A stretch of DNA of 23,779 nucleotides from a virus. Positions within the stretch are counted from its first letter, which is position 1. Each line of letters starts with the position of its first letter. Below are positions 8,404 through 23,065 of this stretch, in pieces. A program made the translations under genes and the position numbers. The notes under the pieces are model-generated. The model was given only the letters and a program-made list of their open reading frames with translations. It ran no database searches and had not been told where the DNA came from. The stretch lies in the IMG/VR virus record IMGVR_UViG_3300020474_000113, positions 1 through 23,779 of that record, one strand, 5' to 3'.

Positions 8404-11193
8404 TTAATTAGTAGTAGTAGCGATACTCACATCGCCACCACCAAAGAAGACATCACCGAATATGGTTGGTCCAACTTCATTATTGAATGCACTAGCGATG
8501 AATATGGGATTACCATCCTGTGCACTATCTACAGTTGCAATAACCTCAGAGTTAGTAAAGTCATATAGATCTACAGTATCGTTATTATGATATCTCAATC
8601 CAATTTGAGTAGAACCAGGATTTGGATTAACCCATTCTTGGTCAGAACCACCAACATAATTTGAGTTGCTGGTATTAATAGTCATACCATTCATATCAGG
8701 ACCATCAATATCTTCATCTCCACCAGTTTGATAACTCCAGTCCCATGGCGCAAACGCTTGTGTATCAAGATCATCACTATAAGGAGGATTACTGGTTTTC
8801 CATATTCCAACTCTATGGTTTCCAGTAACAGCTGAAGAGGTACTCCACTTCATTTGATATCCCTTAGGGAGACCATCTTTGTGTCTTAGAACAGAATCTC
8901 TTTCAATTCTGAGTGTATGTGCGTCTGCGTGCTGACCAGTTGAAAGACCAACTACAGTGCTAGGGAATCCATTGACTCTCCACTGACCCCATGGGTTATA
9001 CCATGGCTCACCTCTATTGTGTTTTATGTTATTATGGTAAACATACTCCCAACCATAAACTTGAACACCAGTGGCAGTAGGAACATATGATCTTTCACCA
9101 CCAAGAGTAACGAAGATTGGATTACCATCTAAAGTAGCATCAGCAGTAGCAATAAGTGTTCTCACACTATTGATCACAGTAAAATATTTTAACTTATTAG
9201 TTCCATGTTCATATCTAATTCTGAAATCTGTACCACTATAATCGGTTGACAAATCAGCACCAGTATTCAGTGTGACTGCAGAAGTTTGTTCTGATTGTGG
9301 TCTAAGAGTTCCATTTCTATGGAACTTCAATCCAATCAAAGTGGTATTATCACTAGCAACATATCCAATAGTAAAGTTTTGGTAACTACTATGAGAAGAT
9401 GTAAGGGTAGGTACAGTCCATTGGAACTCGTGTCCAGGTCTCATCTTCTCACCCCAAGTAACTCTCCAGACAGAACTGTTAAGTACAGATTCATTAGCAT
9501 CAACCCATCGCGTAAATGGTTTTACTTTATCACTTGTTGCGGTCCATGAAAGTCTTGACGATCCTATTGTCCAATCACGATGATCACAATACCATTGAGC
9601 CCCATTCCAATCAGGTTCAAATTCAAATGACAGAAAACTTAAATTTGATGAACTACCGACTGGGAGAATGTATGGGCAGACATCATTACCATCATAATCA
9701 TTATCACCAGTAACGATTACTTCATCAGTATCTTCATCAAAGATATCCCATGAGTTATCCAAATGATATCTCCAAGAAAGATTTCTAGCAGGAATAGGTC
9801 TTGTTTCAGTCATATCATCATACAGAGAGGTATAACTAGTGTTCATACCACATATTTCATATGCATGAATCTTCTCAAACTGTGAGATTCTCCAAGTCAT
9901 ATCACCATTAGTATAATTATTGGAATCTGGATTGGTCAGAGTACCAGGACCAGTGTAATCATTGGAATAGTAAATGTTTTGACCGTTTGTAGGAACACTA
10001 AACTTAAGTTTCATTCCAGGTCCGAAACCATAGTTGTGTTTCCATACATCAGCGCCTTTAAACCCGTCACGAATATGGAGTGATCCAGCAACATAGGGAC
10101 TAGATCCTGCTGAAATCTTTGTATATTCTGATGTTCTCTTTTCACTAACTCCACCAGGTTCATAACCATCTGTATGAGAAGTAAAGTGAATATAAGTTTC
10201 TGTTACTCCCATGCCTACAGTAGCACTATCAATATGCCAACTGTGTGGACCATCAATTTCCCACAACTGAATCTTGTTAGTTTCATAATCCCATCTAAGA
10301 GAATGGGTTAATGAACTTCCTGAGAGATCAATACTTCTGCCCAGTTGAATACCTGTAATACCATAAGAGGAATCACTATCATTTGATATAACACTATTTG
10401 GTTTAAAGTACCACTTAGCTGTCCACTTACTAGGACTAGTAAGAGTACCAGTTTCAGTTGTACCACTATTCCAAATACCAACTTGCCAGTGGTGTGTTCC
10501 AGCAGTAAGGATTAGTTCATCACCCTTCTTCAGTTTCTCACCATAGAATAATGGACCACTACTCCAATTGTGAATACTAGTAGCTGCTGCCCCAGTATTG
10601 TGGTAGAACATTTTAGCTGATGAAACTCCAGCAACCCCCATCAGGTTACTCATATCTACATCAACAAATGATGCATCATTTAGAGTAAGTCTAAGAGTTG
10701 TATTTCCAATACCAGTTACAATACCACTAGTGACAGGATTTCCTGCACCGCCTCCACCAGAGGTAGGAGCTATAAGGGATAGTGTCTTGCTAGATCTAGT
10801 TACTGTAGCAAACCCAACAAAGTCAAGAATATTGCCCTTACCTAGGGATACACCATCCTTCTTAAGTTCAATATCATTAGGAGATGAGGTTCCCAATCCA
10901 TTGATATAATTAATGACTTGGGTCATATCATACCCAAGACCACTTACTAGTCTTGTACCACCTTCATTTTCAATAGAAGAAATACGAAGTCTTCTAAAAA
11001 TTCTTCTGGGAGTTATACCATCTCTCTTTACTTTGTCAATTCTACTAATGGTAATACGAGAAGTAGATGTGACACCCTTACGAACATATACAGATGCCTG
11101 CACAACACCACCAAGGGGTGCTGATCTTACTCTTCTACCAGTATCAAAGATAACTCTACCTTTGTCGCCATCTTCGTAAATCTTAACTCCCAT
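8404..11193 (-). CDS. Large modular virion/tail-fibre protein A2, 929 residues
   Basis: Paralogue of the 1183-residue gene at 16191. The N-terminal 100 residues share the order VIFD.GRRV..APLGG, TPRRIFRR and QVINYIN, followed by a Gly-rich hinge (GGGGAG, about residue 146). The rest is about four repeats of a 160-170-residue beta-rich module. Each begins with a line like WGEKMRPGHEF and a W/I-rich strand, continues through LRYHNND-type strands and closes with DGNPIFV or its relic. Order matches modules 2-5 of the paralogue. No enzyme motif is seen. Long length, Asn/Ser/Thr/Gly/Trp-rich composition and location with the other fibre genes indicate a trimeric tail-fibre or adhesin. It is the last gene of the block. 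Confidence 0.75.
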   Translation of the reverse strand: MGVKIYEDGDKGRVIFDTGRRVRSAPLGGVVQASVYVRKGVTSTSRITISRIDKVKRDGITPRRIFRRLRISSIENEGGTRLVSGLGYDMTQVINYINGLGTSSPNDIELKKDGVSLGKGNILDFVGFATVTRSSKTLSLIAPTSGGGGAGNPVTSGIVTGIGNTTLRLTLNDASFVDVDMSNLMGVAGVSSAKMFYHNTGAAATSIHNWSSGPLFYGEKLKKGDELILTAGTHHWQVGIWNSGTTETGTLTSPSKWTAKWYFKPNSVISNDSDSSYGITGIQLGRSIDLSGSSLTHSLRWDYETNKIQLWEIDGPHSWHIDSATVGMGVTETYIHFTSHTDGYEPGGVSEKRTSEYTKISAGSSPYVAGSLHIRDGFKGADVWKHNYGFGPGMKLKFSVPTNGQNIYYSNDYTGPGTLTNPDSNNYTNGDMTWRISQFEKIHAYEICGMNTSYTSLYDDMTETRPIPARNLSWRYHLDNSWDIFDEDTDEVIVTGDNDYDGNDVCPYILPVGSSSNLSFLSFEFEPDWNGAQWYCDHRDWTIGSSRLSWTATSDKVKPFTRWVDANESVLNSSVWRVTWGEKMRPGHEFQWTVPTLTSSHSSYQNFTIGYVASDNTTLIGLKFHRNGTLRPQSEQTSAVTLNTGADLSTDYSGTDFRIRYEHGTNKLKYFTVINSVRTLIATADATLDGNPIFVTLGGERSYVPTATGVQVYGWEYVYHNNIKHNRGEPWYNPWGQWRVNGFPSTVVGLSTGQHADAHTLRIERDSVLRHKDGLPKGYQMKWSTSSAVTGNHRVGIWKTSNPPYSDDLDTQAFAPWDWSYQTGGDEDIDGPDMNGMTINTSNSNYVGGSDQEWVNPNPGSTQIGLRYHNNDTVDLYDFTNSEVIATVDSAQDGNPIFIASAFNNEVGPTIFGDVFFGGGDVSIATTTN

Positions 11194-11200
11194 GATTCTC

Positions 11201-12913
11201 CTAGTTGTCTACTGATACGGTTACTGCTTTCATCTCAAGTTCTCCCTCATCACTTGGTTTTGCCTCAATGTGGAAACTTCCTGCATCTGATGTTGATATA
11301 CCTGTTAAAGTAGCACCAACAAAGAAAGGAATCAAAATCTCACCAGGATACACTTCAGCAGCACCCTGTGTAACGAGCAAGGCCTGCTTATCAATACTAA
11401 AGTTAGTTAGCCCAGTTCCTTGAGTGGATGTATTGGTAGTGAAGAACAATCTAATGTCCAGGTCACTATCATCAACGTCAGGAGTCCAATCGAATGCAAT
11501 TCTGACAAGACAATTAGCACCAGCACTCATACCTGCCAGAGAGAATTCTGTTTGACCAGTACCAATAGTAGCACCTGAACCAACATATGGATTACCATTA
11601 TTACCAGCTGTCATCTGGTGTGTTTGATGGTTATATGTTGCTGCTACTTGAGGCTGAAGAAGACTCCACACATCCTCAGGTAATTCCTGTACAGTGTTAG
11701 CAACACCAACTGAATATGCATCAGTAGTGTATGCATAATAACCTTGAGAGCAATCTGTTACAAAGTTGGAATATGCTACAGATGATATACCAGTAACAGA
11801 AGTACCATCATGAATAAGAAGCTCACTGGTTGTAGCAGAACCTACAGTAACAATACCAGCAAGTGATGTACCATCGCCAACAAATGAAGTTGCAGTTACA
11901 ACACCAGTTGCAACGATTCCACTACGAGCAGTAATAAGACCAACCGAATCAATATTCTTTACATCTTCTTTTGTTAGTGTACCACCAATAGAAATATTAC
12001 CAGTGATTTCAAAATCACCAACAACCTTACTGGTAACAAAACCTACATCATTAGTCAGTTCACTTAATGAATTAAGTGTGTTACCTCCAACACCACCAGT
12101 CCAGATACCGGCAACTGCATCATACTGAAGAACTCTACCGTTAATAAGAGCAGTGGACCTATCAACATCATCAAGGTATTGTAACAATACCTCACCACCA
12201 CCTCCAACGGTAGCCATCTGTTGTTGAACCCTGTTCACAAACACTTTGTAGTGTTGTTGAAGTTGATCAAAGGTTACAAAGTTCTTATCCAGTGGAGTAA
12301 GAGTATCACTATTATTAGTAGAAGGAGGTTCATTTAGAAGCCCTTCTTGAAGAACCTCATACTCATATCCAATCTTATCTAACTTCTCTTTAATTAACTC
12401 TTCGTTCGCATCAGCACTCTTTCTCAGCTCTTTAAATACTTGTTCTCTGAGTTCAAAGATAGTGTTAGGAGTCTTCTTAATGTACTCCTCTACAGCAATA
12501 ACACTTGATCTCAGTTTGTTGAGATCCTTCACTTCCTCTCTGAAGAATACCTTAATGGTTTCTTTAGTCTCTTCTAGTCTCTCTTCAAGAGTTTCATATA
12601 ACTCTACTTTGAGTTCTCTAATTCTTGATTCAGTTCTAAGATCAGACTGAAGGACTTCCTTCTTATACTTAGGAAGTTGATTCTCTTTGATGTCATTACA
12701 AAGATTGTAAACTTCAAGTACTTGATCTTTATATGCAGACAGTTCTTTCTTATTAGAGGAGAGAATTTGTTCCTGAATATTTCGGAAAGCACCATCAATT
12801 AAAGACACTGAATGAGTAATCTCCTCTTCCAGGACTTGTTTGTCTTCAATAGATTCTTCTACAACATCAATGACTTCTTTCGTCTCATTAAAAAGTTGGG
12901 ATGGTGTAATCAT
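11201..12913 (-). CDS. Coiled-coil fibre protein B3, 570 residues
   Basis: Residues 10-190 are charged coiled coil (EEEITHSVSL, SRIRELKVELYETLEERLEE and similar). Residues 204-260 are the linker shared with the 675- and 529-residue genes: LTPLDKNFVTF, HYKVFVNRVQQQ, GGGGEV, YLDDVDRSTALINGR. Residues about 300-352 hold the beta-repeat string common to cyanophage fibres (GNISIGGTLTKEDV, LITARSGI, ATSFVGDGTSL). Residues 448-570 are a C-terminal head that closely matches the end of the 675-residue protein (IGTGQTEFSLAG, QGTGLTNFSI). This suggests a trimeric tail fibre with stalk, shaft and tip. Start at 12911-12913, 46 bases after GATAAATA. It ends seven bases before the 929-residue gene, making a pair with it. 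Confidence 0.82.
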   Translation of the reverse strand: MITPSQLFNETKEVIDVVEESIEDKQVLEEEITHSVSLIDGAFRNIQEQILSSNKKELSAYKDQVLEVYNLCNDIKENQLPKYKKEVLQSDLRTESRIRELKVELYETLEERLEETKETIKVFFREEVKDLNKLRSSVIAVEEYIKKTPNTIFELREQVFKELRKSADANEELIKEKLDKIGYEYEVLQEGLLNEPPSTNNSDTLTPLDKNFVTFDQLQQHYKVFVNRVQQQMATVGGGGEVLLQYLDDVDRSTALINGRVLQYDAVAGIWTGGVGGNTLNSLSELTNDVGFVTSKVVGDFEITGNISIGGTLTKEDVKNIDSVGLITARSGIVATGVVTATSFVGDGTSLAGIVTVGSATTSELLIHDGTSVTGISSVAYSNFVTDCSQGYYAYTTDAYSVGVANTVQELPEDVWSLLQPQVAATYNHQTHQMTAGNNGNPYVGSGATIGTGQTEFSLAGMSAGANCLVRIAFDWTPDVDDSDLDIRLFFTTNTSTQGTGLTNFSIDKQALLVTQGAAEVYPGEILIPFFVGATLTGISTSDAGSFHIEAKPSDEGELEMKAVTVSVDN

Positions 12914-12932
12914 AATATCATTCTTATGTTTT

Positions 12933-12944
12933 CCATCTAGATGG
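12933..12944 (-). promoter_or_regulatory. Perfect 12-base palindrome in the leader of B3
   Basis: CCATCTAGATGG is a perfect inverted repeat between the GATAAATA element and the start codon at 12913. It has no loop as RNA, so it is more likely a protein-binding site than a hairpin. At this length a chance palindrome remains quite possible. Confidence 0.25.
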
Positions 12945-12958
12945 GTTTGTCCTTCTAG

Positions 12959-12966
12959 TATTTATC
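12959..12966 (-). promoter_or_regulatory. Candidate late promoter (GATAAATA)
   Basis: GATAAATA on the minus strand, one base from the T4 late consensus TATAAATA, 46 bases before the ATG of the 570-residue fibre gene. It lies in the only sizeable gap inside the fibre block, so it could start a shorter late transcript for the last two genes. Confidence 0.55.
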
Positions 12967-12980
12967 AATAGTATTATACC

Positions 12981-14600
12981 TTATGGAGAGTCAGATACAA
13001 AGTTAGAGGATGCCATATTAGTCATTGTCTGGTCTGCGTTTCCGACATTATCCTCAATAGTTGGGAAGGTATCACCATCACCCATCCTATAAACATGAGC
13101 AGCTGATGGACTGAAGGCAGTAAGGTCAGTTGGTACTCCAGAGTTGTAGAGACTGGAAACTTGAGTTGATGTAAGTTCTTGATTCCAATATCCAAACTCA
13201 TCAATGAGAGAACCTTTCAGGTGGAAACCAGATGGGTTACGACCAAACCCAACAAATATAGGTTCAATAGGTCCAGCACTAGCAGGAACTCCCACTACAG
13301 GATCTCCATCACTAAAGTCAGTTCCAGTAGTTGCTACTTCTGAACCATTGATATAAATTTTCAAAGTATATGGAGCATTTAATTCCAAACCATCAGTGCT
13401 ACCATCATAAGTCACAACAATATGATGCCAACCATTAGAAGAAGCAACTGTTCCTACAGCTGTTTGAATAGTCAATCTATTACTACTACCTGAAACAGCA
13501 TACTGTAATCTAAGTCTTTGCCTACTATTGGCATCACCCTTCCATCTTAAATCAATATAACTTGTTCCACTAAATGTTCCTAATTGACTAAAGGCAAAGA
13601 AAATGGATTGATTGGAAGTAGTATCGGTATTTGGTTTAAACCACATAGAATAACTATGGGCAGGCATTGCCTGACCACTTGACTTCTGAAGGTTTGTAAA
13701 TTCACCACTCTGTCTTGTTCTGATGGTATATTCAGTGTCATCAAACTGTGTGGATTTTGAGTTTGTATAATCTTGAGTTACATTCAGTGTAATGGTAGTC
13801 TTTGCCATCCCAACATAGTTGTGTGCTCTCAGGGTCATATTGTATGTACCAGCATTCAAATCAGAACCACCAATAAGTTTCTGTGGGTGGTTGGTGACCT
13901 GACAGACACCCTCTGGTAAGTTAGTCCATTCAAATGCAGACACCTCACCACCAGTTGTGGTTGCCTCATAGTTGATGATAGTTCCCACACCAACAGTAAT
14001 GGAACTGGCAGAAGAAATGACTGGAGGTTGTGCTCCACCAGTCTGAGTGAAGAGAGAGTTTAGATCATTAACTACACTTGCTTGTGTAGTTCCAAGACCA
14101 ACACCACCAATGGTTACATTTGCAACTCTCAGTCCCTCATAGATGGTAATATCTGATGATGCCTGTCTAGTTGTGATATTGATATTTTCTCCACTTGCTG
14201 ATGCCTTGAGATAATCAGTAGGGTACTGATCACCATTGTCCAACAGAATGGTACTGAATGAGTCATCAACCTTGAAATCAATAGTGTCTGAATCACTCAT
14301 AATAAATCTACCAGTCTGACTGATAGTATTAGCAGCATCATTGATATAATTTACAGCACCCTGAGCACTGGAGAACCCAACATTATCAGCATCAACAAAT
14401 AAAGTATATGGTACTCTAAAGAACTCGTAGATACTACTACCAGCACCAACATCCCTAATATTATTTTCAATATTAATTCTATCTGTTGTTCCAGCAGAAA
14501 CACTTGCACTCAAACAACCATTCCAAAATACAGGTTGTGTTGAGTTATAGAAGTTGATGCAGTTACCTGCGTGATTATGTACTACTCTAATTGTATTCAT
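12981..14600 (-). CDS. Virion protein with Ig-like and LamG/concanavalin-like domains, 539 residues
   Basis: Residues 1-190 are beta-rich and of unknown fold (MNTIRVVHNHAGNCINF; DIRDV-like turns; VTIGGVGLG). Residues about 191-275 look like a putative Ig/cadherin-type domain (PPVISSASSITVGVG to AGTYNMTLRAHN.VG.AKTTITLNVT). Residues about 283-505 fit a LamG/concanavalin-A-like jelly roll (SMWFKPNT; NGWHHIVVTYDG; LKIYINGSEVATTG; GSLIDEFGYWNQELT; a final LYNSG). LamG domains bind sugars or proteins, so a receptor- or surface-binding decoration of the tail or head is likely. Similar LamG virion proteins are known in cyanomyoviruses. Four bases of overlap with the upstream stop couple it to the 529-residue gene. 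Confidence 0.85.
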   Translation of the reverse strand: MNTIRVVHNHAGNCINFYNSTQPVFWNGCLSASVSAGTTDRINIENNIRDVGAGSSIYEFFRVPYTLFVDADNVGFSSAQGAVNYINDAANTISQTGRFIMSDSDTIDFKVDDSFSTILLDNGDQYPTDYLKASASGENINITTRQASSDITIYEGLRVANVTIGGVGLGTTQASVVNDLNSLFTQTGGAQPPVISSASSITVGVGTIINYEATTTGGEVSAFEWTNLPEGVCQVTNHPQKLIGGSDLNAGTYNMTLRAHNYVGMAKTTITLNVTQDYTNSKSTQFDDTEYTIRTRQSGEFTNLQKSSGQAMPAHSYSMWFKPNTDTTSNQSIFFAFSQLGTFSGTSYIDLRWKGDANSRQRLRLQYAVSGSSNRLTIQTAVGTVASSNGWHHIVVTYDGSTDGLELNAPYTLKIYINGSEVATTGTDFSDGDPVVGVPASAGPIEPIFVGFGRNPSGFHLKGSLIDEFGYWNQELTSTQVSSLYNSGVPTDLTAFSPSAAHVYRMGDGDTFPTIEDNVGNADQTMTNMASSNFVSDSP

Positions 14601-16186
14601 CGTTGGATAGTAAAAAGAACACCAATAGGATTAACAAGAATTGGATTATCTGCCTTGATAGCAACAAGAGATCTAGAATTGACATCCTGTTGGTTTGCCA
14701 TATATGCAGTGATGGTTGGTCTTAAAAGGAAACCTTTTCCAACACTTCCACTACCGTAAAAGAAAGGTGTGATTGTAAGTGGGAATGTGAAGGTGACGTT
14801 ATCATTAGCATCACGGTTAGCATAGATGAGAGCAAGCTGTACAGTTGTATTGGTGACCATAGGCATGACATTGAAGTCAAATCTTGCCAGAACTAAATCA
14901 CCTACCTGACACTCCTTCAGACTGAATGAACCAAGTGCCTGTGTGTATTTAAGACTTCCAGAAGTCTGTGCATTATTGAATGCTGTATTTTCACTGAAGT
15001 CAAAGAAGTGATCTACACCAGCAGGGGCAGTGAGTCCACCAAAGAGACCTTTTGTGTTGTCGTATTGAGGATTAGTTTCTCCCCACCATTGATTATCTCT
15101 GGCTTGGTTTCCTGCAGTGGACATACCAAACCTGTACCAGGTTTCCGAATCTGCTAGTTCCTGTGTGTATTCTATGTAATCAGAAGGGTCTTGTGAAGCT
15201 TCAGTTCCAGTTTGATAATCAACAAAGGAACTTGATCTATCATATCCACCCTGAGACTTAATTGCTCTTGGGACTGCACCACCAGTGATATACTCTGGAT
15301 AGGTGAAGGTGTTTGCAATACTTACATTAGTTGCAGATGAAATACCAGTAGTTAGAGTACCATAGTCAGTGGTTTCAATTCTCTTTACATTATCGTGATA
15401 CAGATCTACCGAACCATTATTATTGAAGAAAGCATAGTCTTCACTAGTGGCAGAATTAAGAAGTCTGATTTGATTACTACGAAGTTGTAGTTGACCAGTT
15501 CCAGCGTTCTGAATGATACCTGTTCCAGCAGTTGTGTGCTGAATCTGCAAGTCATCATTATCACCAAAGTTCAGTTTCTGATTATCTGCAAACTGAGTAC
15601 CAATGCCACCACCTGAGATAACTTCCCATGCCTGGTTTCTTCTAGCATAAGGACCACCTGTCTTAGGTGCATCCTCAATACCACCTCCACCAAGTGAAGA
15701 CAACTGAACAGAAATCCTATCAAGGAATAGTTGATAGTGTTCCTTTAGGTCATCAAAGGTTGCAAACTTTGTGTCATTGAGAGGATCAGTTTCTTCAGTA
15801 ATCTCATCAAGGATCTTGATTGATTGATCAATAACACTTGGAGTTGGTTTGAGTGGTTCTGGTTTGATGAGATCTTCTGTTTCAATCTCTGTTGGAACAT
15901 AGTCATCTCTCCAGTCAGTTGCATCAACTTCTTCTATGAAGTCTTCTGCAACTTCTGCAACAATCTCTTCCTTCTCTTCCTCTGTCTCAGAGAACAACCA
16001 AGATTCAAAGGCAGCTGCTTGTTTCTCAACCTTTTCTGAATTGACTTTATCCTTTTTGATCTCTTCTTTAACCTCTGAGAAGATTGAATTTATATCAATC
16101 TCCCCGACAAGTTCTCTAAACTCATCTTTCTTTTTCTTCTTATCTTCAGCAATAATCTTGAAGAAATCGCCTAACCCTTCACTCAT
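14597..16186 (-). CDS. Coiled-coil fibre protein B2, 529 residues
   Basis: The N-terminal 90 residues are acidic/basic coiled coil (DKKKKKDEFRELVGEI, IFSEVKEEIKKD). Residues 133-170 are a shorter copy of the shared linker (TDPLNDTKFATFDDL, HYQLFLDRISVQLSSLGGGG). Residues about 205-280 form the beta module common in cyanophage fibres (LNFGDNDDLQIQHT, QLQLRSNQIRLLNS, FNNNGSVDLYHDNVKRIETT). The C-terminal 190 residues differ from those of its two relatives (FSLKECQVGDLVLARFDFNV, TFTFPLTITPFFYGSG) but keep the same order of strands. It is a likely trimeric fibre with its own tip. It sits between the 1183-residue and LamG genes with almost no gap. Confidence 0.8.
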   Translation of the reverse strand: MSEGLGDFFKIIAEDKKKKKDEFRELVGEIDINSIFSEVKEEIKKDKVNSEKVEKQAAAFESWLFSETEEEKEEIVAEVAEDFIEEVDATDWRDDYVPTEIETEDLIKPEPLKPTPSVIDQSIKILDEITEETDPLNDTKFATFDDLKEHYQLFLDRISVQLSSLGGGGIEDAPKTGGPYARRNQAWEVISGGGIGTQFADNQKLNFGDNDDLQIQHTTAGTGIIQNAGTGQLQLRSNQIRLLNSATSEDYAFFNNNGSVDLYHDNVKRIETTDYGTLTTGISSATNVSIANTFTYPEYITGGAVPRAIKSQGGYDRSSSFVDYQTGTEASQDPSDYIEYTQELADSETWYRFGMSTAGNQARDNQWWGETNPQYDNTKGLFGGLTAPAGVDHFFDFSENTAFNNAQTSGSLKYTQALGSFSLKECQVGDLVLARFDFNVMPMVTNTTVQLALIYANRDANDNVTFTFPLTITPFFYGSGSVGKGFLLRPTITAYMANQQDVNSRSLVAIKADNPILVNPIGVLFTIQR

Positions 16187-16190
16187 ATCT

Positions 16191-19100
16191 TTATACCGCT
16201 GTAGTTGTTAACGCAATACCCACATCTCCTCCACTGAAGAAATCATCAACCATTTGTTGTGAATTGTTTGTAGCCCCACCAAATCCAGCACCTATGTAGA
16301 TTGGATTACCATCACAAGCAGCATCCTTGGTTGCAATGACCTCACCATTTGATTCATCAAAGATGTCAAGAGTATTGTCAGAATGATATCTAATAGAGAA
16401 CTTAGTGCTTCCAGGATTAGGATCATCCCACTTGGTAGCAGTATAGTTAGAGTTACTGGTATTGAAAGTCATTCCATCCAAATCCATTATCTCCTCAGAG
16501 GTATTTAATCTCCAACTCCAATCCCACATCCCAGGATTATTCTCTACATTAGTGAGACCAGATGAAGCATTACCAGTTTTCCATATACCAAAACGAGTAT
16601 TGGTAGCTGTAAGAGGAAGTTGCCAGTGCATCTTATATCCCTGAGCAAGTCCATCCTTATGTCTCCACACTTGATCTGCCTTGTGTGCAAGAACCTGACC
16701 AGTGGATGCAATACCAACAGAAAGAGAAGTGTTCTCTGGGAAGCTACCTATTCTCCAGTTCTCCCAAGGGTTGTAGTAGTTAGGTGGCTCATGAGCACAT
16801 TCCCAACCATATACCTGAACACCTTGAGTAACAGGAAGTCTGGTTGAGTCTCCACCCATAGAGATAAAGATGGGATTACCATCAAGTGCTGATGAAGATT
16901 CAGCAAGTTTAGTTCTTACACCTGCGTTCAAACTATAACATACAAGTTTGTTAGTTCCATACTCATACTGTAGTCTCATACTTGTGCCAGCAGTTGGGGT
17001 TAGAGTACTAGCAGTACCAACTTTAGTAAATCCAGCATCCTGATCTGCTGTATCTTTGAGATATCCACCTCTCCAGAATTTGACACCAGATGAGTAAGTA
17101 CTATATGAACTATCCAGAACACCAATAACCATATTATTCTTGGTGGAACCATTCTGGTTCTGGTTCAATTGAGTCCAGACAAACTCTTGTCCTGGTCTCA
17201 TCTTCTCACCCCAGGTTACATTATATAATCCATTACCATTACTATAATGACCATTACTAAAGGTAAGGCTATTAGTTGCTTCCTGCAATGCATGTCCATT
17301 AGCAGTCAGGACCAACCAAGCATTCGAATTAGAACTTGGGTCCCAATCACGATACTCCATGAACCAGGCTTTCTTGTTCCACTCCCATTCCCATTGACAA
17401 ATGTTTGTTTCGTAATTAGGAGCATCTGTTGCACCAAACAGATGAGGATAAATCTCACCACTGAGAGTATTATCACCAGTGAGGATTTGTTCATCAGTAT
17501 CCTCATCAAATAGATCCCATGTATTATCTGAATTATATCTCCAAGAGACATTTCTACCTGTCAAATTTAATGTAGTATTACCTGTATTGTATGCAGTGTA
17601 GTTGGTATTAATAGTAGCGTTCATCTGATTTGATGCTACGTTGCTACTATTAATTCTCCAAGAACCAGTGGCACTATTGTATGGGTTGTTAGGTCCATCA
17701 CCAAGACCAGTGGTTCCACCATATCCAACACCCCAGTATTGAAGTTTGGCAGTATCAACAAATGTTGTCTTAAGTTTCAGTCCAGATTTCAATGACCTAG
17801 TAGACTTCCACATCTCATCATCGACAACACCACTATGAACAGTCTTACCAGTTAGTGCATTTATATGAGATTTCAGTTCCCATTCTGATTGTCTGTGAGT
17901 AGGTGTTGGAAGGGAAGATCCACCAGTATTATCACCACCACGAGAGAGGTAGATGTATTGTGTTGTTACACCTACTAGTGCAGCATTGGCATTGGATAAC
18001 AACCAATCACCTGATCCATCGATTTCCCAGAGTTGTAGTTTGTTGGTATTATAATCCCATCTCACAGCATATGATCCATTGTCTACTTGGATATCTTTTG
18101 CCATCTGGACACCAGTAGGTCCAGCGGATGTAGTAGCAGCCTCCCAGTCAGTTCTATTGTGATTGTACTGCCACTTGGTTGACCAGTTAGATTTGTTTCT
18201 AACATTGTCACTACCAGTTACACCAGTACCACCATCCCATATACCAATATGGAAACTATTACCAGGGACTGAGAACTTAAGTTCTTCTCCCCTATGAAGA
18301 GGTTCACCCCAGTAAACAACACCCTGATCAATATCATGGGTACTATTTTCTAAGGATTTGTTTGAGTTGTGATACTTAAAGTTAGTTTGGTCTTGATAAT
18401 ATTGAACTGTGGTAATACCAGGAAGGTGTACATTAGCGTTATCTGATATAGCAAAACTGATGGTGATTGGATTTCCATCCTCTGCCAAGTTAGCAGTTGC
18501 AATACCAATAGGAGTATTAGAACCTCTGTATATCTCTAACTTATTAGTATCTCCATTATACCGGAGACGCATAAAGGAAGCGTTATTACTGATTGTAGTG
18601 TATTGAGTAACACCACTCCCAAATCCAAATCCTTGACTATCAAGCTCTGTACCAGCATTGTCGATGTGGTGACCATCAGCATTACTATTTCTGAACACTA
18701 GAACCCTTTCCCAGTTAGCAACATTACCTGATGTTGTTGGGTCATAAGTTGTATTGCCTCCCCACTTACCTACCCAGTATGCACCAGTACCACTCATTGA
18801 GTGAGTCCATACCATCTCTTGATACGGTTTCAACTGAACACCATAGTAGTATGGGTTGTTCTGTTCGGGTGGATTAGTGGATGTAATACCAGGACCAGCT
18901 GTAGAGAAACCTGCACCAGGAGTCAGATACTGCTGATACCAGTTGAAATCATTGATTGTTGTTACATGATCTGGAACACCAGTAAGAGCACTGTATGGTA
19001 AGCTGTGTGCATCTGTAAGATCAAATGCTGGTGTAGGATCAGAATCACCCAGAGTGAAATTAACTCCACCAAGTCCAGTAATATGTGGATTGAGTTTAGT

Positions 19101-19742
19101 GGAATCAATAAGTCCTGTGATCTTAGATCCATCTATACTGTCAATCTGACCACTAGTAACAAGACCAACAATATTAGATGAATTGACTACACCCATATTA
19201 AGAGTGATTGTTGATACACCTGCAGTTGGTGAAGTAACAGAAGAAACAACATCCCCTCTAAAATCAAATACGGTAACACCCGTACCAACATATCCACCAC
19301 TGGTTGTAATACCAATCTGATCAACACATATATTTGCAACATCATCAGCTACCGTAACAAAATCAATACCACCCTTAAAGTTAAGGGTAGTACCACCACC
19401 AACTAGTGCTCCATTCTTTTGAATATCAATTTCGTTAGACTTCTTATTGGCCTGGTCATTGATATAATCAATGACTTGTTGCAGACTAAATCCAAGATCT
19501 GCTACAAGAAACTGATTTGCTTTATTCTTGATTCTAGTAGGAAGAATTCTTTTAAAAAGTCTTCTTGGTGTGACACCATCTCTACTAAACTGATCACTTC
19601 TGGTAATCCTAATTTTACCTGGTCGAGAGGGGTTTTCAACTGCAGCAACAATACCACCCAGAGGTGCTGCAGGAACTCTACTTCCATCAAAAAAGATACG
19701 ACCTGCGGATACACCTGCATAAATTCTTACGTTTTTTGACAT
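16191..19742 (-). CDS. Very large modular virion/tail-fibre protein A1, 1183 residues
   Basis: Paralogue of the 929-residue gene. N-terminal domain (about 1-130): RIFFDGSRV..APLGG, TPRRLFKR, QVIDYIN. About 130-260: fibre-like strands (TVADDVANICVD, TGLIDSTKLN). From about 260 there are five modules of 160-170 residues, each starting with a line such as WGEPLHRGEELKFSVP or WGEKMRPGQEFVWT and ending near DGNPITI/DGNPIFI (clear in modules 1, 4 and 5; changed in 2 and 3). The C-terminal end is DDFFSGGDVGIALTT, like DVFFGGGDVSIATTT of the relative. It is probably a long fibre or adhesin shaft. It is the longest gene in the window and uses no obvious catalytic residues. Confidence 0.75.
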   Translation of the reverse strand: MSKNVRIYAGVSAGRIFFDGSRVPAAPLGGIVAAVENPSRPGKIRITRSDQFSRDGVTPRRLFKRILPTRIKNKANQFLVADLGFSLQQVIDYINDQANKKSNEIDIQKNGALVGGGTTLNFKGGIDFVTVADDVANICVDQIGITTSGGYVGTGVTVFDFRGDVVSSVTSPTAGVSTITLNMGVVNSSNIVGLVTSGQIDSIDGSKITGLIDSTKLNPHITGLGGVNFTLGDSDPTPAFDLTDAHSLPYSALTGVPDHVTTINDFNWYQQYLTPGAGFSTAGPGITSTNPPEQNNPYYYGVQLKPYQEMVWTHSMSGTGAYWVGKWGGNTTYDPTTSGNVANWERVLVFRNSNADGHHIDNAGTELDSQGFGFGSGVTQYTTISNNASFMRLRYNGDTNKLEIYRGSNTPIGIATANLAEDGNPITISFAISDNANVHLPGITTVQYYQDQTNFKYHNSNKSLENSTHDIDQGVVYWGEPLHRGEELKFSVPGNSFHIGIWDGGTGVTGSDNVRNKSNWSTKWQYNHNRTDWEAATTSAGPTGVQMAKDIQVDNGSYAVRWDYNTNKLQLWEIDGSGDWLLSNANAALVGVTTQYIYLSRGGDNTGGSSLPTPTHRQSEWELKSHINALTGKTVHSGVVDDEMWKSTRSLKSGLKLKTTFVDTAKLQYWGVGYGGTTGLGDGPNNPYNSATGSWRINSSNVASNQMNATINTNYTAYNTGNTTLNLTGRNVSWRYNSDNTWDLFDEDTDEQILTGDNTLSGEIYPHLFGATDAPNYETNICQWEWEWNKKAWFMEYRDWDPSSNSNAWLVLTANGHALQEATNSLTFSNGHYSNGNGLYNVTWGEKMRPGQEFVWTQLNQNQNGSTKNNMVIGVLDSSYSTYSSGVKFWRGGYLKDTADQDAGFTKVGTASTLTPTAGTSMRLQYEYGTNKLVCYSLNAGVRTKLAESSSALDGNPIFISMGGDSTRLPVTQGVQVYGWECAHEPPNYYNPWENWRIGSFPENTSLSVGIASTGQVLAHKADQVWRHKDGLAQGYKMHWQLPLTATNTRFGIWKTGNASSGLTNVENNPGMWDWSWRLNTSEEIMDLDGMTFNTSNSNYTATKWDDPNPGSTKFSIRYHSDNTLDIFDESNGEVIATKDAACDGNPIYIGAGFGGATNNSQQMVDDFFSGGDVGIALTTTAV

Positions 19743-19743
19743 C

Positions 19744-21771
19744 TTACGTTACTATGTTGATTGTTAGGGCCATCATTTGAAGATCACCTTCATCACTCGC
19801 TCTTGCAGAGATATTAAAGGATCCAGCTGTTTGTTTGGTAAGTCCATACAACGAACTACCAACATAAAAGTTGATCAGCGTCTCACTTATATATGGTTGG
19901 TCAGCACCCTCGTTACAGATAAGACCTTGCTCTCTTATAATACTAAAGTTAGTCAATCCAGTCCCTTGAGTTTCGGTATTTGTAGTAAAGTTTAAACCAA
20001 AATCAAGGTTGGTATTATCAATATCAGGGTCAAATTCAGCAGCAATTCTAACGATTACTGAGGAGCCTGGATCTAAACCAGCAAGTGAGAATTCTGTTTG
20101 ACCAGTACCAATTGTAGCACCAGCACCAATCCAAGGATCATTGCTGTTAGCAATGAGCATCTTCTCAGGTAAGAAATCATACTTATCTGATCTAACTGAT
20201 GGTTGAATCAATACAAATGTATCAGCAGGAAGAGTCTGAATTGTATTTGCTATGCCACTAGAGTAGTAATGAGTACTGTATCTGTAGTAACCTTGATGGT
20301 AATCATTCATGAAGGTTGCAATACCCACTGAAGTCACACCAACATATTCAGTACCATTGTGTTGGATCATGCTACCTGCAGTTCCAACAACACTAATACC
20401 ACCTCCTCCTCCACCACCACTAGCAGTGGCACCTACCCACTTATCAAGGGAAGAATCATACTTGAGGAACTTACCATTAACCTTTGCTGAATCTCTATCA
20501 ATATCATCAAGGAACTCAAGTCTGACTTCACCACCGCCACCAAGGGTAGAAAGTTGCTGTTGAATTCTATTCAAGAACAACCTGTAATGATTAGACAGGT
20601 CATCAAGTGTAGCAAAGTTCTTGTCTAATGGAGTCAGAGGATCTGTATTGTCCTCTGTGGGAGGAACAACTAAGATACTTTCTTTCAGACCTTCGATCTT
20701 TTTATTCAGTTTGTTTTCAAGAACCTCAACTAGATTCCTAACACTTTTAACTGAATCACTAACTTCACTGATCTGTTCATCATAATACCTAACCTCAGGA
20801 AGATTGTCAATCTCTTCCTTGAGTCCTCTCAGATAAACATTGACCTTTGAATCCTTTTGTTCCTGACTTTCTATAATCTCGTTAAGAGATTTACCAAGTT
20901 TCTTATATTGTGCTCCAAGTTCTTTCTTGAGTTTACTATCATCCTCCTGAAGTTCCTTCTTCAGGTTCCACACTTTAACAGAAGTATCTTTTATTTCCTT
21001 AAAAATCTTTTCCTTAGTCTCACCAATCGTTTCAATGAGAGTATTTTCAGATGATGTAAGTTTCTCATCAATAGACTTAATATACTTGGCGTCAACACCA
21101 GCTTCAAACTTGACAACATCAATCGACTCGACGAGATCATTGATCTCCATTTCGAGTTTACTCTTGATCTCAGTGAGATTACTAACTAGGTTCTCTTGAC
21201 CCTCATCAAGTTGAGAGAAAGTCTTGATGATCCATCTGAAGTCAGGGATATATCTATCCTTTACTTCATGAATACTTTCTTTCAGTTCTTTAATATCTTG
21301 ATCGTAATACTTGACTTCAGGAACTGAAGGAATACTATCTCTTAGTTCTTGGATCTCTTTATCATAGTATCTAACTTCAGGAACTGAAGGGATACTCTCC
21401 TTAATTTCTTTGATCTCTTGATCATAAGACTTGAACTCAGGAATATCTTTTCTGAGATCTTCAATCTGATGCACCAAGTCATACAATTCCTTGTCGTATG
21501 ACTTGACTTCTGGGATACTATTCCTCACACCTTCAATCAGTGTGATTACACTTGAGAGGTCAGCAGTAATAGGAGCTGGTTGTTCTACAACCTCCTCTTG
21601 AATAACCTCTTCTTCTAAAAACTCTTTATAGGATGGCAAATCAGCTTCAACACTCTCACTCAAAGGAGGAGGGGTTTTTTCGATGAAATCATTTACAGAA
21701 GGGAGTGTAGATGTATCCTTTATGAAATCATTTACTGACGGCAAATCCTCATTCATCAACTTACTAATCAC
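19744..21771 (-). CDS. Coiled-coil fibre protein B1, 675 residues
   Basis: First of the block. Residues 10-52 carry three spaced copies of a short motif (LPSVNDFI twice, then LPSYKEFL) that may be a docking peptide. Residues about 86-360 are coiled coil, with four 20-residue repeats at 86-169. Residues 376-430 are the linker shared with the 570- and 529-residue genes (LTPLDKNFATL, HYRLFLNRIQQQL, GGGGEVRLEFLDDIDR). A Gly-rich hinge (GGGGGGG, about 452) precedes a C-terminal head (555-675) that matches the 570-residue protein. It reads as a trimeric fibre or fibre hinge. The ATG at 21769-21771 lies 16 bases after an exact TATAAATA late promoter. Confidence 0.83.
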   Translation of the reverse strand: MISKLMNEDLPSVNDFIKDTSTLPSVNDFIEKTPPPLSESVEADLPSYKEFLEEEVIQEEVVEQPAPITADLSSVITLIEGVRNSIPEVKSYDKELYDLVHQIEDLRKDIPEFKSYDQEIKEIKESIPSVPEVRYYDKEIQELRDSIPSVPEVKYYDQDIKELKESIHEVKDRYIPDFRWIIKTFSQLDEGQENLVSNLTEIKSKLEMEINDLVESIDVVKFEAGVDAKYIKSIDEKLTSSENTLIETIGETKEKIFKEIKDTSVKVWNLKKELQEDDSKLKKELGAQYKKLGKSLNEIIESQEQKDSKVNVYLRGLKEEIDNLPEVRYYDEQISEVSDSVKSVRNLVEVLENKLNKKIEGLKESILVVPPTEDNTDPLTPLDKNFATLDDLSNHYRLFLNRIQQQLSTLGGGGEVRLEFLDDIDRDSAKVNGKFLKYDSSLDKWVGATASGGGGGGGISVVGTAGSMIQHNGTEYVGVTSVGIATFMNDYHQGYYRYSTHYYSSGIANTIQTLPADTFVLIQPSVRSDKYDFLPEKMLIANSNDPWIGAGATIGTGQTEFSLAGLDPGSSVIVRIAAEFDPDIDNTNLDFGLNFTTNTETQGTGLTNFSIIREQGLICNEGADQPYISETLINFYVGSSLYGLTKQTAGSFNISARASDEGDLQMMALTINIVT
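21265..21516 (-). repeat. Four 20-24-residue coiled-coil repeats inside fibre B1
   Basis: Translated, the units read like PEVKSYDKEL.., PEFKSYDQEIKEIKESIPS, PEVRYYDKEIQELRDSIPS and PEVKYYDQDIKELKESIHE. Three have exactly 20 residues, and the first carries four extra. A fifth, diverged copy (LPEVRYYDEQISEVSDSV) is at residues about 324-341. The equal unit length suggests duplication within the stalk. Confidence 0.85.
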
Positions 21772-21801: not shown

Positions 21802-21826
21802 AAAAAACCACCCTTGTTAAGAGTGG
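21802..21826 (-). terminator. Rho-independent terminator of the pilin operon
   Basis: Minus strand: CCACTC, loop TTAACAA, GGGTGG, then six T. One U-G pair is included in the six-pair stem. It lies 11 bases after the stop of the 59-residue gene. The GGGTGG-T arm resembles the psbA terminator at 23093-23118. Confidence 0.82.
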
Positions 21827-21837
21827 TGTGACAATTA

Positions 21838-22017
21838 TTAATCATCCCAAGTTTCAGGATGAAGATAAGGATTTAGATTTCGTTTCTTATTCATATATTC
21901 TCGATGAGCGGTAAGACGCTTTATCGCAAATTGTTTTCTATCAATAGAATGATTATAAGAAACATCTCTCAAGTGATTGAGATAAGAACTGAAAAACTCC
22001 TTTATTTTATCTATCAT
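21838..22017 (-). CDS. Third gene of the pilin operon, 59 residues
   Basis: Starts at ATG 22015-22017, sharing bases with the stop of the secreted four-Cys gene (CTAATG). The product is basic and polar (KEFFSSYLNHLRDVSYNHSI, AIKRLTAHREYMNKKRN) and ends LHPETWDD. It has no signal or TM segment and should be cytoplasmic. The function is unknown. Its overlap with the pilin-like genes and the shared terminator place it in the same operon, so it may regulate or act with them, or be a plain phage gene that was there before the pilin genes arrived. Confidence 0.7.
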   Translation of the reverse strand: MIDKIKEFFSSYLNHLRDVSYNHSIDRKQFAIKRLTAHREYMNKKRNLNPYLHPETWDD

Positions 22018-22580
22018 TAGTAATCAGGATGGTTGCCCCATCCATTGTGATTGTTTACATCATAGAGCCAAGCATCTGGATCTGAGAACTGATATTTGTT
22101 GTGGTTCCATACATCACGAGGAATACAAGCTCCACCAAGTGCAGAGTAGTATTGATCGTTGTAACCATAAACTCCCCACTGATCGTAGATAGGACACTGA
22201 TGACCAGAATACCGTGTTGGAGTTTCAAACTCAAACTGTCGTTCTACAACATCACCAACATCATCTAACCCCTGATCAGGAACAGCTAGACGGAATGCAC
22301 GAGTAACAGATTGAACATACTTACCAGACCCATAGGTACAAGTCACACTGTAAGCATTCTCAGTGTTTTCTCTAGCCTCTGATGTACAATTTTCAGTAAC
22401 TGTTGGTGGTGTTTCAGTACCACCTTCATAAGATGCTGCAAATACTACTGCTGCTGATTCAGAAACACCAAGATTTTTAGCTCTCAGTTGTGCTTCGTAG
22501 GGTGCTATGGACATCTGAGCAATCGTGGGAGCTGCCGCTCCCATAACGCTAAGTCCCACCAGTGAGGACATTAAGTTCAT
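22017..22580 (-). CDS. Secreted pilin-associated-like protein with four Cys, 187 residues
   Basis: The start ATG overlaps the stop of the prepilin gene (TAATG), so the two are translated together. Residues 1-22 (MNLMSSLVGLSVMGAAAPTI) are hydrophobic without a basic start, as in the pilin N-terminal helix or a signal peptide. It lacks a GFTLxE leader. The rest is exported-looking: Cys65 and Cys81, then Cys129 and Cys152, two likely disulfides; repeated Tyr/Trp/Asn/His in the last 60 residues. I recall similar proteins (MSSLVGL..AAAP...MS.AP) beside pilA in marine Synechococcus. It is probably a minor pilin or pilus-associated protein. The order and coupling with the prepilin are the strongest support. 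Confidence 0.7.
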   Translation of the reverse strand: MNLMSSLVGLSVMGAAAPTIAQMSIAPYEAQLRAKNLGVSESAAVVFAASYEGGTETPPTVTENCTSEARENTENAYSVTCTYGSGKYVQSVTRAFRLAVPDQGLDDVGDVVERQFEFETPTRYSGHQCPIYDQWGVYGYNDQYYSALGGACIPRDVWNHNKYQFSDPDAWLYDVNNHNGWGNHPDY

Positions 22581-22966
22581 TAGCTCTTAACAGGGTTACC
22601 AGGGATGCCATCGACCATTGTTACTGTGTGGGTATCACCACCACCAACAAATGCAAAGGCGGCTGTGTCTCCACAAGTGATAGCGGCATTGGTAATATCA
22701 CCTGTAGCTACTGCTGCAACATCACCTTCTGATGCAGTTCCACCAATGATTGCAATTGAACAAGTCTTGGCTGCGTTCACTGCGGTTGATTGAGCTGCTG
22801 CTGACTTAGCTCGGTCTTGTGCCTTAGTCAATTGAGGCAATGCCACTGCAGAAAGTACACCAACGATTGCCACAACGACCATCAATTCAATCAATGTAAA
22901 TCCGTTTTGTTTCCGGTTCTTCTTAGAAGAGATACGACGAAGAAGAGTGGATTGAAAGTTTGTCAT
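22580..22966 (-). CDS. Type IV prepilin (PilA-like)
   Basis: From ATG 22964-22966: a 22-residue basic leader (RRISSKKNRKQNG), then the prepilin peptidase site G/FTLIEL with Glu at mature position 5, and MVVVAIVGVLSAVALPQL as the N-terminal helix. The mature protein is about 106 residues, with a Cys pair (KTCSIAII and AITCGDTA) that should form the C-terminal disulfide. An earlier ATG (23012-23014) lies upstream of the weak -10-like element and adds 16 unlikely residues. The AQDRAKSAAAQSTAVNAAKT helix resembles picocyanobacterial PilA. It needs host PilD and PilB/Q machinery to be assembled. Its presence in a phage is unusual. A host origin is very likely. Confidence 0.9.
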   Translation of the reverse strand: MTNFQSTLLRRISSKKNRKQNGFTLIELMVVVAIVGVLSAVALPQLTKAQDRAKSAAAQSTAVNAAKTCSIAIIGGTASEGDVAAVATGDITNAAITCGDTAAFAFVGGGDTHTVTMVDGIPGNPVKS

Positions 22967-22994
22967 GTTGTTTGGGGTTGTTCCCTTGACTACC

Positions 22995-23009
22995 TTTATA
23001 ATATAGGTC
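22995..23009 (-). promoter_or_regulatory. Weak promoter-like element before the prepilin gene
   Basis: The minus strand holds CCTATATTATAAAGG, with overlapping -10-like hexamers (TATATT, TATTAT, TATAAA). No TTGACA-like hexamer occurs at 16-18 bases upstream. The psbA terminator lies upstream, so a promoter is needed here, and this is the only AT-rich block that could serve. Confidence 0.35.
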
Positions 23010-23065
23010 ATCAAGAGGCCGGATTCCAGTAGTAATCGATGAGGGGTTTCTGAGGGTTCTCTGAG

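Follow-up and report, generated by a model that had tools for sequence, protein, structure and literature searches.

The host-recognition proteins with which T4-like marine cyanophages meet Prochlorococcus and Synechococcus are poorly known, and six large adjoining fibre-type genes in one cyanophage sequence raise the question of what their products build together and how such an array has come about. The stretch analysed here (the window) is the whole 23,779-base IMG/VR virus record IMGVR_UViG_3300020474_000113. This fragment of a T4-like cyanophage genome contains psbA, talC, thyX, phoH and a gene for a type IV pilin-like protein, and at the DNA level it has matches in 415 cyanophage records, with many T4-like myoviruses among them.

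Layout of the array

Six minus-strand ORFs were found at 8404-21771, with exactly the lengths and the order given in the initial annotation, which had distinguished two families (A and B) and one gene for a laminin G-type protein (LamG). The features are listed in the direction of transcription:

21820-21792, minus strand: promoter-like site TTAACA-17-TATTAT, overlapping the hairpin upstream of B1 (consensus scan)
21807..21827, minus strand: terminator-like hairpin just upstream of B1 (consensus scan)
19744..21771, minus strand: B1, shaft protein, 675 aa with the GTG start as listed (domain searches)
16191..19742, minus strand: A1, partner or tip protein, 1183 aa
14597..16186, minus strand: B2, shaft protein, 529 aa (domain searches)
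12981..14600, minus strand: LamG protein, third partner or tip protein, 539 aa (Pfam and N-terminal homology to A)
11201..12913, minus strand: B3, shaft protein, 570 aa (domain searches, structure model)
8404..11193, minus strand: A2, partner or tip protein, 929 aa
8363..8380, minus strand: terminator-like hairpin with a T run just after A2 (consensus scan)

The true start of B1 is more likely the ATG at 21756, since its relatives align from about residue 5-6 (MNEDLPS). The genes lie head to tail with gaps of 1, 4, -4, 67 and 7 bp, and because of this tight packing and of the terminator-like hairpins flanking B1 and A2 they probably form a single transcription unit, the hairpin and promoter-like region upstream of B1 being its probable start and the hairpin after A2 its probable end. 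Switching by DNA inversion received no support; all genes are on one strand, and the search for inverted repeats returned a single imperfect pair of 26 nt (88%, 14234-14259 in LamG and 20346-20371 in B1, 6 kb apart), which is probably due to chance, and otherwise just one local overlapping palindrome.

The array lies near psbA and talC. The interval between psbA and the array (22017-23014) holds the type IV pilin-like gene, which has an N-methylation motif, and after it a conserved gene of 187 aa (phrog_3415). A search with the latter gene returned three loci only, with the array in none of them. The locus L083 keeps the psbA-pilin-phrog_3415 order with no adjoining array, and at L085:5451-6018 the phrog_3415 homologue is broken across two overlapping reading frames.

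Shafts, partners and the place of LamG

Domain searches of the B proteins and of the ORFs of the fetched loci (L numbers) resolved the B proteins into an N-terminus, a common linker and a C-terminal head. B1 comprises an N1-type coiled-coil N-terminus (1-360), the linker (377-418) and an alpha-class head (487-674); B2 an N2-type N-terminus (3-88), the linker (134-171) and a beta-class head (291-529); and B3 an N3-type coiled coil (1-195), the linker (203-244) and, again, an alpha head (384-569). B1 and B3 are homologous over 570 aligned columns (34%, E 3e-80, blastp). B2 shares with both of them the linker (70-95 aa, E 3e-8 and 2e-5) and gave no blastp match beyond it. The linker motifs on which the B family had been founded were accordingly confirmed in part: GGGG occurs in all three proteins, PLDKNF is exact in B1 and B3 but reads PLNDTKF in B2, and HYRLFLNR is exact in B1 only, with HYQLFLDR in B2 and HYKVFVNR in B3. 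The coiled-coil N-terminus of B1 also contains three adjoining imperfect 60-nt (20-aa) repeats at 21263-21442, with a fourth copy at 20741-20800.

No mutual homology of the N1, N2 and N3 N-termini was detectable by profile comparison, the N1-N2 and N2-N3 pairs being compared by profile score only, while the N1-N3 coiled-coil similarity was indistinguishable from column shuffles. Each type has relatives elsewhere, N1 in SynMITS9220M01, N2 in a tail-fibre gene of S-SM2 and N3 in S-B05 and S-H68. The similarity of the alpha and beta heads was likewise indistinguishable from column shuffles, of which 4 of 300 reached the score, and a wider profile still gave a weak match (E 0.0095). All three B proteins match cyanophage tail-fibre families of PHROGs (phrog_28263, 30742, 6942 and 8745), with best E values of 5e-22 (B1), 4e-15 (B2) and 9e-17 (B3).

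The A proteins are homologous over their full length (36% over 780 aa, E 7e-132, plus 34% over 196 N-terminal aa, blastp), and the motifs APLGG, TPRRxFxR and QVIxYIN ascribed to them are present in both. Each starts with an N-terminal domain, called here the joint domain (1-145 in A1, 1-139 in A2), followed by repeats of about 190 aa, five in A1 and four in A2; the repeat cores are spaced about 175-205 aa apart and the weaker copies reach only E 0.03 to 2e-4. A relative at L007 has, like A1, one repeat more than A2. No Pfam family was found for A at E 0.1 in 17 of 17 members scanned, and nine members scanned against PHROGs gave a single weak match. The joint-domain profile had no match in the PDB up to E 10, and PDB sequence searches with the A, B and LamG profiles returned coiled-coil or chance matches only. 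One A-type partner, at L027:11267-13822 (S-H68 QBP05869), is labelled a T4-like gp9 baseplate connector, which the domain matches do not bear out.

The C-terminal part of LamG carries a lectin-like Laminin_G_3 domain (314-482, PF13385, 48.4 bits against a cut-off of 27.6), which together with a weak PKD match makes up all its Pfam matches. A match of LamG to the PHROG "tail terminator" phrog_347 was judged to be a shared domain, because it spans only this lectin-like part. The N-terminus of LamG (1 to about 130) is homologous to that of A. In a narrower direct profile comparison the two N-termini matched at E 2.4e-4, a score reached by 0 of 300 column shuffles. Moreover, a search with the A N-terminus profile brought up distant relatives (L067-L077), and several of these match the A and the LamG profiles alike; the partner at L068 does so at 2e-30 and 8e-28, respectively, and bears a LamG C-terminal domain too. 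With these bridging relatives added, hhalign gave E 4e-7 and 93% probability, collinear over 126 columns. The N-termini of those that match both profiles, at once A-type and LamG-type, rule out that LamG is an unrelated insertion. Since its N-terminus is homologous to that of A, the array is, as judged by homology, made of three shaft-partner pairs, B1-A1, B2-LamG and B3-A2. The earlier observation that the fibre genes come in pairs thus extends to the whole array, each B being followed by a partner. Furthermore, a 197-aa protein encoded after fibre genes in S-CAM7 (L051:16073-16663) matches only the LamG joint domain (E 3e-4) and lacks a lectin tip.

That three pairs stand on one molecule rests on the metagenomic assembly of the window. 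Each pair is backed separately by independent contigs, and an N3 shaft next to an N2-beta-LamG pair occurs, independently of the window, at the locus L039.

Head class, partner class and the exchange of parts

Across all fetched loci, from both myo- and siphophages, 41 distinct pairs had a B head and a readable next gene, the three window pairs included, and without exception the class of the head predicts that of the partner (30 alpha-A and 11 beta-LamG). The gaps between head gene and partner gene range from -4 to +19 bp. The association gives a Fisher value of 3e-10, which is inflated, as the pairs come from related phages. Five phages fetched after the profiles had been made all fit the rule: S-CREM2, MA01, S-B68 and S-CRES1 as beta-LamG and P-SS2 as alpha-A. 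The L067-L077 partners, most of which match both N-terminal profiles, are in every case preceded by an alpha head. Within the alpha class the identities of head and A are correlated (r 0.56, reached by 0 of 5000 permutations), but the head tree and the A tree disagree in places, for example at L008; exchange has therefore also occurred between head and partner within a class, and the matching is by class and not by strict pairwise co-evolution.

Comparison of the loci further indicates that the B N-terminus, the B C-terminus and the partner tip are swapped between lineages. Alpha heads sit on N1, N3 and further N-termini. At L018 an N1 shaft carries a beta head and is followed by LamG, whereas the other N1 shafts have alpha heads and then A. 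In S-B05 and S-H68 the N-terminus of A is joined to a LamG-type C-terminus. At L039:8699-9877 the reading frame of an N3-type shaft runs on into the last repeat of A (its last ~130 aa), as a deletion between B3 and A might produce, and an N2-beta B gene and LamG come next. Whole pairs vary as well: at L019 LamG follows the end of B2, and talC and thyX come next in the window order, with no B3-A2 pair between LamG and talC.

It had been proposed that a B-A pair was duplicated and that B2 and LamG were inserted, and a recent local duplication of this kind, with redundant function of the copies, would agree with the clear homology of A1 to A2 and of B1 to B3. Trees and identities, however, show that B1-A1 and B3-A2 are not sisters and that each is closer to other phages, in separate supported groups: B1-A1 goes with L007 (its C-terminal head also with L005 and L006) and B3-A2 with L044. 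The N1 and N3 N-termini are without detectable homology, and LamG, the supposed insertion, is itself an A-type partner. Such an origin is thus very improbable. Assembly of the array from circulating, exchangeable parts, with gain and loss pair by pair, would fit the sequences better than local duplication.

A proposed two-protein fibre and its alternatives

The most probable reading of these data is that the array specifies three distinct host-attachment fibres, with two adjoining genes for each of them, one for a shaft and one for a lectin-like tip. The N-terminus of B, whose type differs between B1, B2 and B3, would probably dock on the virion, and its coiled coil would form a rod. The C-terminal head would act as the joint, that of the alpha class being probably trimeric and TNF- or C1q-like, and the N-terminal domain of about 140 aa of a partner of the matching class would plug onto it. 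Exposed at the tip, exchangeable lectin-like domains, namely the repeats of A1 and A2 and the LamG domain of the third partner, would then bind the host surface.

The structure models bear on the joint and on the fold of A with little weight. AlphaFold models of A2 and B3 were poor (mean pLDDT 50 and 52, with only the B3 head moderately confident), so their fold matches were used as hints only. The B3 model shows a helix over ~190 residues and a C-terminal sandwich with a pLDDT of about 80, for which the nearest folds are TNF-like lectins and C1q-like heads, the closest being the TNF-like lectin BC2L-C. Both TNF-like lectins and C1q-like heads are trimeric, and a trimeric joint is weakly suggested. 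The best folds for A2 in Foldseek, neurexin LNS, galectin and laminin G, are weak (pLDDT 50, no sequence match) and hint at most at a ConA-like lectin fold of the repeats.

The resemblance of the B3 head to a lectin might also mean that B alone is the receptor-binding fibre and that A and LamG are chaperones or caps, like Tfa or T4 gp38, the more so as chaperone genes typically lie right behind the gene of their fibre. This is unlikely. Known chaperones are far smaller than the A partners, which have 929-1183 aa with tandem repeats and reach up to ~1950 aa in relatives; no partner matched the tail-fibre chaperone families (Tfa, gp57A/gp38 type) in Pfam or PHROGs; and the L039 fusion bears an A repeat on the shaft itself. 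Homologous pairs have, moreover, been found in purified virions. In S-CREM2 the virion proteome includes ORF129 and ORF130 with 19 and 24 unique peptides (PMC10665884), and in P-SS2 ORF067 and ORF068 were detected with 9.5 and 6 peptides on average (PMC2784084). Both members of the pair are therefore virion parts in these relatives, with one detected pair per phage, which argues against a partner acting purely during assembly.

Presence in the virion would also suit decorations of the collar, baseplate or head that enrich the phage near host surfaces without being the decisive receptor-binding fibres; in S-CREM2 a giant long tail fibre has a gene of its own (ORF85), apart from the ORF129/130 pair, and nothing places the pair on the baseplate. 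We regard this too as improbable, given that PHROGs classes the B-type genes as tail fibre and that fast module exchange suits host recognition. The genomic sites point the same way: N1-alpha-A pairs are commonly found among structural genes, where the neighbours, assessed from their sizes and against annotated records, fit the gp16-gp17 interval, and both this interval and the vicinity of psbA, where the window array lies, are named hot spots of variable cyanophage genes (PMC3037559).

For the preferred shaft-and-tip fibre, the best reading by analogy is that it may work like the T-even gp37-gp38 system (T2/S16 type), where a fibre gene is likewise followed directly by its partner gene, parts are exchanged in modules, and the fibre C-terminus is matched with a partner thought to sit at the tip, as would be the case here. 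No homology to gp38 was detected in Pfam, and the joint domain has no PDB match. The present partners are 2-7 times larger than gp38, with lectin-like repeats where gp38 has glycine-rich loops, and they come here in three tandem pairs, with two joint classes never seen crossed and with siphophages included. Among cyanophages, P-SS2 ORF067-ORF068 (alpha-A) and S-CREM2 ORF129-ORF130 (beta-LamG) differ from the window in having one such pair in the stretch examined and longer partners (1740 and 1640 aa); the proteins have been described only as hypothetical, unknown structural or fibre, without the concept of a pair. S-B05 (QCW23021-QCW23022) and S-H68 (QBP05868-QBP05869) share with the third window pair an N3-type shaft and an alpha head followed by an A-type N-terminus, but have a LamG-type partner C-terminus and one such pair in the stretch examined; the annotation of their partners reads carbohydrate-binding module or T4 gp9, of which T4 gp9 is probably wrong. 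The branched tailspikes of Ackermannviridae such as CBA120 similarly provide one phage with several receptor-binding proteins and specificities (PMC11414711, PMC7506556). They are single-protein tailspikes joined by N-terminal domains, whereas the window fibres would consist of two proteins each; the comparison at sequence level is a Pfam scan.

The initial annotation had also envisaged several receptor-binding fibres in one virion. Several candidates do occur in one genome, and three fibre types might be present together on each particle. More broadly, it can be put forward, tentatively, that host recognition in several kinds of marine cyanophage relies on one shared plug-in system of three levels, with interchangeable virion-docking shafts, two mutually exclusive joint classes and interchangeable lectin tips, from which the window phage, with three fibres, would draw several specificities per particle. 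The pair reading suggests a function for hypothetical or unknown virion proteins in two published proteomes, and the A partners have no Pfam and almost no PHROG family. With the class rule, shaft-tip pairs could be sought in the genomes and metagenomes of cyanophages, compatible parts predicted, and broad host range tested against the number of pairs. Swapping of such parts would explain how cyanophages change or widen their host range.
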